DNA of 32,121 nt from Nostoc sp. TH1S01 (lineage in GTDB: Bacteria; Cyanobacteriota; Cyanobacteriia; Cyanobacteriales; Nostocaceae). The translations under genes and the position numbers were made by a program. Position 1 is the stretch's first letter. Each line of letters begins with the position of its first letter. The stretch is taken from positions 1 through 32,121 of the forward strand of contig JAGKSW010000198.1 of assembly GCA_018993265.1 (NCBI GenBank), written 5' to 3'. Below are positions 29,872 through 32,121 of this stretch, piece by piece. The notes beneath the pieces were generated by a model. That model searched no databases, was not told the DNA's origin, and saw only the letters and a program-made list of their open reading frames with translations.

Positions 29872-30105
29872 ATGAGCATCACAATTACAGGTACTATCGA
29901 ACGTCGTGATATTGGTATGGGCGCTTGGGCTTTAGTTACAGATGACGGCGCAACCTACGAAATTCTCAAAGGCGCTGATAAAAGCTTACTCAAAGCTGGG
30001 CAGCAAGCTAAAGTCACAGGAAAGGTGCGTGAAGATATTATGACAGCAGCAATGATTGGCCCAGCTTTAGAAGTTAAATCTTTTGAGATCCTTAATTCTC
30101 ATTAG
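29872..30105 (+). CDS. Small beta-rich protein, unknown function
   Basis: A 77-residue protein starting at ATG 29872. The pattern of short strands and glycine turns (ITGTIERRDIGMGAWALVTD, TYEILKGA, AKVTGKVRE) suggests a small OB-fold or similar beta barrel. There is no signal peptide or membrane segment. It follows the subtilase by 83 bp on the same strand with a heptamer repeat between, and its last 14 bp overlap the end of the convergent thioredoxin-like gene. No Shine-Dalgarno sequence precedes it, because the repeat sits there. It looks like a conserved small cyanobacterial protein; I cannot name its role. Confidence 0.72.
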   Translation: MSITITGTIERRDIGMGAWALVTDDGATYEILKGADKSLLKAGQQAKVTGKVREDIMTAAMIGPALEVKSFEILNSH

Positions 30106-30415
30106 CAGTGGGATTTAAAACTGCTTGCAGACGGCTTCTAAATTCGCCTTTGGGATGTCCGCCTTTAACTTCACCAATAATCTGAAATTCTCCCTCTGGA
30201 GAATCACAAATAATATAAGTAGGCCATCCCATCTCTGATTTATCAGGATACTGGGTGAGCAAAATTTTCCGATATTTGCGATAAGTAGCTGTATCTTGCA
30301 TTTTCACATCAATAAACTGCAAACCCAATTCTTCAGCTACTTTTTGGTCATAAAAAGCCATCTTATGGCAGATGCCGCAGTCTTCAGAAGAAAATTTAAT
30401 TACAGCTAAACTCAT
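30092..30415 (-). CDS. Thioredoxin-like protein with CGIC motif
   Basis: A 107-residue thioredoxin-fold protein. The N-terminal strand LAVIKFSS leads into EDCGICHKM, with Cys13 and Cys16 as the redox pair, and GWPTYIIC (63-70) carries the cis-proline Pro65. The CGIC pair is not the canonical CGPC, so the protein may be a reductase or a disulfide-handling variant rather than a classical thioredoxin. I chose ATG 30415 because AGGGAGG lies 11 nt upstream; a longer frame begins with TTG at 30445 and would place that ribosome site inside the gene. It is convergent with the 77-residue gene (14-bp overlap). It is the last protein gene before the tandem RNA array, so by memory of Nostoc it may be the neighbour of the hetF region. 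Confidence 0.85.
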   Translation of the reverse strand: MSLAVIKFSSEDCGICHKMAFYDQKVAEELGLQFIDVKMQDTATYRKYRKILLTQYPDKSEMGWPTYIICDSPEGEFQIIGEVKGGHPKGEFRSRLQAVLNPTANEN

Positions 30416-30426
30416 ATAATTTTGCG

Positions 30427-30433
30427 CCTCCCT
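30427..30433 (-). promoter_or_regulatory. Ribosome binding site of the thioredoxin-like gene
   Basis: AGGGAGG on the minus strand, 11 nt upstream of ATG 30415. It decides the start against the TTG at 30445. Confidence 0.65.
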
Positions 30434-31072
30434 GTAAACAGGCAATAAATGCTACCATACTTTTTCAAAGTAAACATCTTACTAAGGTATGAGTAATTGA
30501 GGGTAGCGCAATTCATGAAAATTTAAGTAAAAAATTCAGAATTTTATCTAAAAAAAATAATTTTCAGGAAATAGTCATAGTGAAGAAATGCTGTTGACTA
30601 TGCCACAGAATTTAGCCGAAACCTAAGCTATAGCTTTGTTCCAGGTTGGAAAATGAACTCAAAAAAATTAATTTTTAGCAATCTGTAATCTGGTTTTGAC
30701 AAATCAGTAGAAATCTGACTATAAACTATGATAGGATGTACAAACTTACGATTCTCATACAGGGTAGCTTCTGCAAAGCAACTGAGCGATCGCAACAATA
30801 TTTCCACAATCCATCTGCTGCTTGCTAATAGTAGAAGGTAAATAAGTGAGTTTAATCTTATAAACACTAAAAGTGTTTGATAAACTCTATCGGTGGCATG
30901 ATAACTGCGAAGATTCAGATTCAAGTTAAGTCAATAAATGCTGACACTGATAGTCAAAAAACACCATTTGCACTAGTATATTGTCTGAAACTTGCGCTAG
31001 AATATACGCCTAAGCAACTACCAACAAAAGACAATAATTGTCTCAATAACTTTCAAGTAAGTGTTAGGTAAT
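30434..31072. other. Non-coding stretch before the RNA array
   Basis: About 640 bp without a supported gene. It should contain the promoter of the thioredoxin-like gene. One HIP1 site is at 30785-30792. A 98-codon minus-strand frame at 30628-30924 has no coding character. If the array lies in the leader of a plus-strand gene beyond the window, that gene's distal promoter could be here; I could not point to it. Confidence 0.5.
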
Positions 31073-31103
31073 CCAGGGAGTTAAGTATCAGGGTACATCT
31101 ACC
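31044..31103 (-). ncRNA. Array unit A, degenerate NsiR1-like copy
   Basis: It keeps the core (31085-31103, GTATCAGGGTACATCTACC) and the best TCCGGA in the array (31134-31139), but the T-run and hairpin at the 3' end are missing, so termination would be poor. The left limit is only estimated from the 60-nt length of other units. It retains a perfect 12-bp inverted repeat around the hexamer (31105-31116 with 31137-31148). Confidence 0.3.
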
Positions 31104-31169
31104 AATTAATTGTTCCAAGGTCTAGCAAAGTCTTCCGGAACAATTAATATAAAGGTTTTTGGGTGCTTC

Positions 31170-31229
31170 AAAAGCAAAAATATAGTTGTATCTACCAAGC
31201 AGGAAAGTTAGTTATCTTAGTACAACTAC
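31170..31229 (-). ncRNA. Array unit B, degenerate NsiR1-like copy
   Basis: The core is altered (GTTATCTTAGTACAACTACC, from 31211). TCCGGA is intact at 31262-31267, 33 nt or more upstream of the predicted 5' end. No clear terminator hairpin or T-run is present at the expected 3' end, so the copy may be dead or read through. Confidence 0.3.
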
Positions 31230-31305
31230 CAATAATCTGTTTCTAGGATTTAGAAGTATGTTCCGGATAAAAATTCCAAAAATCAGTATGCTGCTAAAAC
31301 AGCAT

Positions 31306-31364
31306 AAAAAAATCTACCAGTTATGGCCAGTGCATAGGGGAGTTAGTTATTAGGGCGCGTCGAT
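31306..31364 (-). ncRNA. Array unit C, diverged NsiR1-like copy
   Basis: The core begins at 31346. The RNA would end in a T7 run (plus-strand A7 at 31306-31312) but its hairpin is weak (TATG/CATA). The upstream hexamer is TCCGAA (31400-31405). The inverted repeat around it is retained with a new sequence, TATTTATTCG (31373-31382) and CGAATAAATA (31402-31411). Confidence 0.5.
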
Positions 31365-31444
31365 TGATAATTTATTTATTCGAGAATTTATCAACATCTT
31401 CCGAATAAATATGCAATAATCATGGTTGCTATTTACCAAATATT

Positions 31445-31503
31445 AAAAAATCTCCCAGTAATGTCAGATAAATAGGAGATTTATTTATCAGGGTGCATTT
31501 ATA
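31445..31503 (-). ncRNA. Array unit D, diverged NsiR1-like copy with intact terminator
   Basis: The core begins at about 31485. On the minus strand AAATCTCC and GGAGATTT (31475-31482 and 31448-31455) pair perfectly over 8 bp and run straight into the T-run (plus-strand A6 at 31445-31450), a textbook terminator, although the stem sequence is unlike that of the young units. The upstream hexamer is TCCGCA (31537-31542), and the inverted repeat around it is lost. Confidence 0.6.
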
Positions 31504-31586
31504 AAAATTATTTGGTTCGAGATTTAATTAACATCTTCCGCAGAAAACATATATAATTACTTTACTTCTGCTGAGATGTTGCTAGT

Positions 31587-31646
31587 AAAAAAATCCTCCT
31601 AGCCAGTGTCAGCCAGCTAGGGAAGAAAGTTATCAGGTGCATCTAC
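31587..31646 (-). ncRNA. Array unit E, NsiR1-like RNA
   Basis: A predicted 60-nt RNA. The terminator stem on the minus strand is CCTAGC/GCTAGG, six Watson-Crick pairs with a 12-nt loop, followed by AGGA and T7 (plus-strand A7 at 31587-31593). The upstream hexamer is CCCGGA at 31678-31683. The core lacks one G compared with the other young units. Confidence 0.7.
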
Positions 31647-31712
31647 CAATTAATTGTTCTGTTCTCAAATCGCATCTCCCGGAATAATTTTTCACAAAAA
31701 GCATCATCTACC

Positions 31713-31772
31713 AAAAAAAATCCCCCAGCCAGTGTTAGCCAGCTAGGGAAGAAGTTATCAGGGTGCATCTAC
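31713..31772 (-). ncRNA. Array unit F, NsiR1-like RNA
   Basis: A predicted 60-nt RNA. The minus-strand terminator stem is CCCTAGC/GCTGGGG with one U-G pair, followed by GA and T8 (plus-strand A8 at 31713-31720). The upstream hexamer is CCCGGA at 31804-31809, about 32 nt from the predicted 5' end. Confidence 0.72.
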
Positions 31773-31838
31773 CAATTAATTGTTCTGTTCTCAAATCGCA
31801 TCTCCCGGAACAATTTTCCACAAAAAGCATCATCTACC

Positions 31839-31897
31839 AAAAAAATCCCCCAGCCAGTGTTAGCCAGCTAGGGAAGAAGTTATCAGGGTGCATCTAC
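31839..31897 (-). ncRNA. Array unit G, NsiR1-like RNA
   Basis: Almost identical to unit F. The terminator ends in T7 (plus-strand A7 at 31839-31845), and the upstream hexamer CCCGGA is at 31929-31934. Confidence 0.72.
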
Positions 31898-31963
31898 CAA
31901 TTAATTGTTCTGTTCTCAAATCGCATCTCCCGGAACAATTTTCCACAAAAAGCATCATCTACC

Positions 31964-32024
31964 AAAAAAAATCCCCCAGCCAGTGTTAGCCAGCTAGGGG
32001 AGTAAGTTATCAGGGTGCATCTAC
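31964..32024 (-). ncRNA. Array unit H, NsiR1-like RNA
   Basis: Terminator stem as in unit F, with T8 (plus-strand A8 at 31964-31971). The upstream hexamer has changed to CCCAGA (32056-32061), so its promoter may be weaker, but the inverted repeat around it still pairs (AATTGTTCTG with CAGAATAATT). Confidence 0.68.
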
Positions 32025-32089
32025 CAATTAATTGTTCTGTTCTCAAGCTGCATCCCCCAGAATAATTTTCAACAACAAGCATCATCTAC

Positions 32090-32121
32090 AAAAAAAATCC
32101 CCCAGCCAGGGTTAGCCAGCT
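32090..32121 (-). ncRNA. Array unit I, 3' part only, cut by the window edge
   Basis: The plus-strand A8 (32090-32097) and the first part of the terminator stem region are present and match units F-H. The core and promoter lie beyond the right edge, which shows the array continues. Confidence 0.6.

Follow-up and report, generated by a model that had tools for sequence, protein, structure and literature searches.

The small RNA genes at the right end of the window form an NsiR1 array that is separated from hetF in this genome. The region is probably an ancestral NsiR1 array that lost its hetF neighbour in the ancestor of one clade and is now a trans-acting cluster rather than an antisense locus of hetF. 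The window, i.e. the whole stretch of DNA analysed here (32,121 nucleotides of Nostoc sp. TH1S01, genome G000), is the entire contig C170, which ends inside the array. We computed the family identity of the array, the anatomy of its units, the location of hetF elsewhere in the genome, the confinement of this separation to one clade, the presence of several NsiR1 loci and the conservation of the 5' parts of the divergent units. In PCC 7120, the two roles of NsiR1, antisense control of hetF and trans repression of a hetP-like gene, are difficult to separate, and this array allows one to ask what NsiR1 does without hetF as a neighbour.

The array and its units, together with the gene that flanks them on the left, are as follows.

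31043–32121, minus strand: NsiR1 tandem array of eight units and a cut ninth, with RNAs predicted to be read leftwards (Rfam RF02399, TRF, direct repeats, our own model R1, unit table).
31043–31104, minus strand: unit 1, a putative sibling whose seed differs at one position, carrying exact TCCGGA at −35 and no T-run (23.7 bits with RF02399, below the gathering score; 30.7 bits with R1).
31171–31232, minus strand: unit 2, a divergent putative sibling with exact TCCGGA at −35 and a changed 5' region (spacing, promoter, synteny).
31305–31366, minus strand: unit 3, a divergent putative sibling with a changed 5' region, T-run kept (position, promoter, synteny).
31444–31504, minus strand: unit 4, a divergent NsiR1 unit (33.9 bits with RF02399, below the gathering score; 43.2 bits with R1; conservation).
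31587–31648, minus strand: unit 5, near-canonical NsiR1 with one C missing in the seed (52.3 bits with RF02399, above the gathering score).
31714–31774, 31839–31899 and 31965–32026, minus strand: units 6, 7 and 8, canonical NsiR1 units, each having the exact seed, a hairpin and a T-run (72.2, 72.2 and 76.4 bits with RF02399).
32091–32121, minus strand: a ninth unit of which only the 3' half is present before the contig ends (27.5 bits with RF02399, truncated).
30092–30445, minus strand: gene for a 117-residue CxxC (CGICHKM) protein, 'trx' by motif, a conserved downstream neighbour of the array (synteny in relatives).

The earlier note had proposed NsiR1 as the identity of this array, and the Rfam covariance model bears this out. 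Four of the seven RF02399 matches in the window, all on the minus strand, exceed the gathering score of 39 bits (52.3 to 76.4 bits, E down to 7e-15); the array is NsiR1 (RF02399), with matches far beyond chance for four units. The three other matches (31444–31504, 32091–32121 and 31043–31104) are weaker or cut. Model R1, built on a set of 30 NsiR1 sequences that includes three window units, finds the same seven matches. Units 2 and 3 are matched by neither RF02399 nor R1 and are identified by their spacing, promoter and synteny. The count of eight cores and a partial ninth given in that note is recovered by direct repeats, TRF and the unit table. TRF reports direct repeats at 31587–32121 with a period of 126 and a score of 924, and a separate direct-repeat search agrees. 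The predicted 5' ends of the eight units, all on the minus strand, lie at 31104, 31232, 31366, 31504, 31648, 31774, 31899 and 32026, and the units are spaced 125–144 nt apart.

Units 5–8 are near-identical and display the complete set of RF02399 features (a length of about 60 nt, a conserved 5' region, a 3' hairpin and a T-run), while units 1–4 are divergent and display this set in part. The seed UGGUAGAUGCACCCUGAUA is exact in units 6–8, which fold with energies of −19.1 to −22.0 kcal/mol; it is short of one C in unit 5 and diverges in units 1–4. Across the 30 NsiR1 sequences, the 5' region is nearly invariant and five of the 13 stem pairs carry double-sided changes, as would be expected for a seed followed by a terminator. 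A TCCGGA-like hexamer (the DIF1 motif, as defined in the available part of PMC6133370) with at most one mismatch is found at −35 to −39 in seven units: it is exact in units 1 and 2, TTCGGA in unit 3, TGCGGA in unit 4 and TCCGGG in units 5–7. Such a hexamer had been described before every RNA, which is correct except for unit 8, where there is none within one mismatch. The T-runs, described as lying about 60 nt from the 5' end in most units, are present in seven of the eight units, unit 1 being the exception, and start 52–55 nt from the predicted 5' end. Terminator-like sites in the region number 10, all on the minus strand, versus 1.1 expected in shuffles; the number of sigma-70-like promoter sites is what chance would give (5 versus 5.8 expected).

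The expectation that hetF lies next to the array, on its right, fails. The only hetF match in G000 is located inside another contig (C172:60867–63332, in 77,717 bases), 14.4 kb and 60.9 kb from the contig ends. HetF was identified in the relative G003 by NCBIfam model NF045509 and a CHAT domain. With 150 of 1618 candidates scored, RF02399 has no match (E up to 1) upstream of the G000 hetF on C172. The nearest 1.5 kb on that side contain no NsiR1 core, and R1 gives no match there at E up to 0.1; one 21.7-bit NsiR1 match, at C172 53387, is on the other side of hetF. The cis-antisense layout of PCC 7120, in which hetF is beside the array on the opposite strand with a leader overlapping NsiR1.1 (the available text of PMC8406250 places the hetF start site inside nsiR1.2), is not found in G000.

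What adjoins the array instead appears to be moaA. Contig C20 of G000 ends in a partial NsiR1 unit adjoining moaA, and the CxxC gene, the array and moaA share one contig in five relatives (G001, G004, G008, G009 and G010), which points to the right side of the window array most likely joining C20 and moaA in G000 as well. A thioredoxin gene is found next to the array in place of moaA or hetF in G005 and G006. In the four relatives looked at with a different arrangement (G003, G007, G013 and G016), the CxxC-protein gene and the NsiR1 array are followed by hetF, and by this synteny the window array looks like the ancestral NsiR1 locus.

The separation is confined to one lineage. hetF is found in 19 of the 20 genomes searched. 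In 10 of the 19, the 1.5 kb upstream of hetF carry NsiR1 cores on the opposite strand, and in the other nine they do not, with G002 contributing 348 nt before its contig end versus 1.5 kb for the other loci. R1 detects no NsiR1 at E up to 0.1 in the nine uncoupled loci. Within the genus of the window genome, 9 of 11 genomes have no NsiR1 found upstream of hetF. An NsiR1 match over the cut-off is present in 49 of 60 relatives. In a scan of named genomes, which kept the best 80 of 211 relatives and in which linkage was counted by the core motif (the model matches being the best 300 of 484), 76 of the best 80 loci have an NsiR1 core upstream of hetF. No core is present in 6 kb upstream of hetF in Nostoc sp. 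CHAB 5844, N. spongiaeforme FACHB-130 and Nostoc sp. FACHB-280, nor in the 392 nt examined in one further named locus.

In a HetF tree of 91 rows (72 of the 80 named loci and all 19 genome loci; seven duplicates and L180 were left out, and L182 is in the tree and was not scored), the nine uncoupled rows form one clade with an SH-aLRT support of 99 (quick method), sister to the coupled G003 and G007. The coupling state changes once on this tree, and none of 500 shuffles is as low. The uncoupled hetF genes start with MEFHIS and have a new conserved leader; the coupled ones mostly start with VTQEFHIS. One comparison of the named loci used 72 of 77 and set aside L106–L108 as well as five loci whose start is off the pattern. 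The distance from hetF to the nearest NsiR1 over the cut-off is at least about 484 kb in G008 and 587 kb in G006, both single-contig genomes, and 1.08 Mb on the main contig of G004. The hetF match of G006 (L099, G006:C1:2197038-2199047) contains one in-frame stop and covers residues 3–676 of the 834 in the query. The literature searched, which reached part of the NsiR1 papers, contains no description of NsiR1 away from hetF that we could find.

The window array is one of several NsiR1 loci in the genome. At least ten RF02399 matches exceed the cut-off in G000 (150 of 1618 first-look candidates scored): four in the window, four on C244, one on C155 and one on C98, and a weaker one (36.6 bits) is found on C43. 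None of 14 control genomes reaches the cut-off. The copies on C98 (L016 1501–1551) and C43 (L081 4990–5047) are solo and NsiR1-like, with a hairpin and an exact TCCGGA at −34 and −38, respectively, and share little with the array units beyond the seed and the promoter motif. Matches resembling the C98 copy (about 49–52 bits) occur in seven other genomes.

The C155 copy (L006 6229–6673) and a sigma-factor-like gene are positioned head-to-head, the copy being about 140 nt upstream of the gene, in the geometry of NsiR1.1 and hetF, and the same arrangement is found in G005, G006 and G009. In G000 this gene is an 80-residue fragment with no family match in Pfam or NCBIfam; its G006 homologue scores 36.8 bits with a sigma-70 superfamily model (cut-off 42.9 bits). 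The C155 copy would be antisense to the leader of this gene if the transcript of the latter starts further upstream. The gene at this contig end was first taken for hetF, an assignment dropped since its relatives are mostly frames of about 400 residues and the G006 homologue has this sub-cut-off resemblance to sigma-70. The C244 array (L005) has a Mn-catalase gene on one side and, on the other, a gene whose RelB-like match is below the cut-off. A second NsiR1 array in G008 (L067) is found beside a NACHT-HEAT gene (by Pfam, on the G008 protein only), and a gene similar to it is beside an array in G004 (L077, the second array) and in G006.

Once hetF is no longer its neighbour, the array could be maintained by a trans role. 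According to the available part of PMC9045159, NsiR1.1 of PCC 7120 represses hetF by antisense, and the hetP-like gene alr3234 is repressed at its start codon by NsiR1.4. G000 has three HetP-family genes. The NsiR1 5' region is predicted to pair with the start of the MNYQ-type hetP-like gene at −17.1 kcal/mol (an energy reached by 15 of 1000 shuffles and by 6 of 121 other ORF starts) and with that of the MHQ-type gene at −16.4 kcal/mol (34 of 1000 and 8 of 121); either type may correspond to alr3234. Within the uncoupled clade, the predicted start-codon pairing is kept in all nine MNYQ-type and in eight of nine MHQ/MYQ-type genes (L210 was left out). Comparable pairing is found in none of 11 genes for hetP itself (best −10.7 kcal/mol). 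One HetP-family gene, hetP, is found in each of the coupled G003 and G007 (L191 and L190), and three or four are found in the nine uncoupled genomes. The case for hetP-like genes as trans targets is suggestive: the energies are only moderately unusual, and coding constraint also conserves the starts of these genes.

The array could also be kept by hetF itself, if NsiR1 still regulates it in trans through a seed match in the new leader, which we consider somewhat unlikely. The seed complement GCATCTA does occur about 60 nt before hetF in all eight aligned uncoupled leaders (the alignment leaves out G002) and in G002, as well as at −81 to −90 in 68 of 77 other named loci, and identical copies partly regulate hetF in PCC 7120 (PMC9045159, available part). 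However, the pairing in the nine uncoupled leaders is matched or beaten by 11, 43, 53, 95, 119, 123, 129, 165 and 174 of 500 shuffles, and the best pairing site in G009 is a different one. Moreover, the entire new leader is conserved and not the seed match alone, and an alignment of the old with the new leader fails around the GCATCTA site.

The divergent units bear on whether the whole array or only its identical copies matter. In an alignment of the locus from six genomes, units 1–4 are conserved one by one. In comparison with G003 and G007, unit 1 is identical at 22–23 of its first 25 nt, unit 2 at 24 and unit 3 at 22; for positions 26–62 (37 nt), the numbers are 25–28, 25–27 and 35–36, respectively. 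The unit 2 promoter is identical at 41 of 45 positions in both relatives. Unit 4 has no aligned orthologue in G003 (the row labelled unit 4 for this genome in the unit comparison is G003 unit 3) and 21 of 25 identical positions in G007. The identity at four-fold sites is 0.52 for hetF (G003) and, on 35–37 sites only, 0.59 (G003) and 0.69 (G007) for the CxxC gene. Three spacers are 0.55–0.88 identical, and positions 26–62 of units 1 and 2 are no more conserved than spacers; unit and spacer identities come from the best local alignment, which raises both alike. The 5' parts of units 1–3 are more conserved than synonymous sites, which suggests that these units encode working sibling RNAs.

Units 1–4 might instead be decaying edge copies that do nothing themselves, so that the identical copies alone are of consequence. 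This is consistent with the loss of the T-run in unit 1, with the spacer-like variation of positions 26–62 in units 1 and 2, with the lack of a unit 4 orthologue in G003 and with the divergence of edge copies in PCC 7120 too (PMC9045159, in its available part). Decay does not agree with unit 2, whose promoter and 5' part (24 of 25) in G003 and G007 are conserved above four-fold sites and most spacers, nor with unit 3, in which both parts of the RNA (22 of 25 and 35–36 of 37) are, and we regard it as rather unlikely.

The left flank raises the question of what is transcribed from the promoters of units 1 and 2, which are poor in terminators. The CxxC protein belongs to no Pfam or NCBIfam family and has one match each in 18 of 20 genomes; its gene adjoins the array in relatives. 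Exact TCCGGA at −35 of both units points to 30092–30445, and the gene keeps its place next to the array both in relatives with hetF and in those with moaA at the opposite end, so that the two DIF1 promoters could mainly serve to transcribe the CxxC gene in heterocysts. About 660 nt separate unit 1 from this gene, however, and some relatives have T-runs at the end of unit 1, which makes such a role improbable. The noncoding block between the gene and the array (30640–31066) contains two stretches that are 112–118 of 121 and 119–134 of 136 identical in six relatives. Rfam finds no match in it except NsiR1 nearby. A structured RNA is not claimed for this block, whose fold from five sequences shows a double-sided change in one of its 101 predicted pairs, and an ORF at 30899–31066 was dismissed by eye on the alignments, where substitutions affect the amino acids and the G008 frame stops early. 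Finally, that the locus is an ordinary NsiR1–hetF pair as in PCC 7120, with hetF missing only due to a contig end in repeats, is hardly credible: the contig does end inside the array and hetF does adjoin it in G003, G007, G013 and G016, but the single hetF match of G000 has 14.4 kb of contig upstream with no NsiR1 match (150 of 1618 candidates scored), and the NsiR1 unit at the end of C20 adjoins moaA, in the order seen in five relatives.

In the mechanism proposed for the trans-acting cluster, each unit has its own DIF1-type promoter motif (that of unit 8 being outside one mismatch) and, except for unit 1, a 3'-terminal T-run, and would give rise to a minus-strand RNA of about 60 nt in early heterocysts; transcription in the NsiR1 family is HetR-dependent and heterocyst-specific. 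These RNAs would act in trans via their nearly invariant 5' region, UGGUAGAUGCACCCUGAU, which may pair across the start codon of commitment-delaying hetP-like genes, and the divergent units would be siblings with partly different targets. A wider reading, offered tentatively and with the odds somewhat against it, combines all loci. The NsiR1 of one Nostoc clade, freed from hetF, would have become a dispersed trans-acting family, in which the old array holds conserved siblings with changed 5' regions and new targets, the C155 copy may have acquired a sigma-like gene as a new antisense partner, and the solo C98 and C43 copies keep little beyond the seed and the exact DIF1 hexamer. Its main targets would be the hetP-like genes of commitment; in the coupled G003 and G007, hetP is the only one of them found. 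This clade separates the two roles of NsiR1 naturally, and its strains with complete genomes can show which of them keeps the array. The comparison of relatives also indicates that divergent array copies can be conserved, testable siblings and not decay.

The best-known relative of the array is that of PCC 7120, with 12 tandem NsiR1 copies upstream of hetF (PMC9045159 and PMC8406250, available parts). The two are alike in family score, tandem organization, a promoter for each unit and TCCGGA-like −35 hexamers, and, as far as the available text on PCC 7120 goes, in having identical central and divergent edge copies. Unlike in PCC 7120, hetF is not beside the G000 array, where moaA probably is; G000 has further NsiR1 loci on other contigs; and seven or eight canonical or weaker units are seen in an array whose end is missing. 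The array of Nodularia spumigena CCY9414, described in the available part of PMC3610870 as 12 short repeats upstream of hetF, likewise repeats an RNA of this family in tandem, but its position upstream of hetF, shared by 76 of the best 80 named loci, is not that of the G000 array. The G000 loci also resemble sibling small RNAs in general (PMC4211561) in comprising several related copies, which may or may not be redundant. They differ in that the divergent copies are kept in one array with a promoter for each unit, and in that the solo loci elsewhere share little except the seed and the promoter motif.
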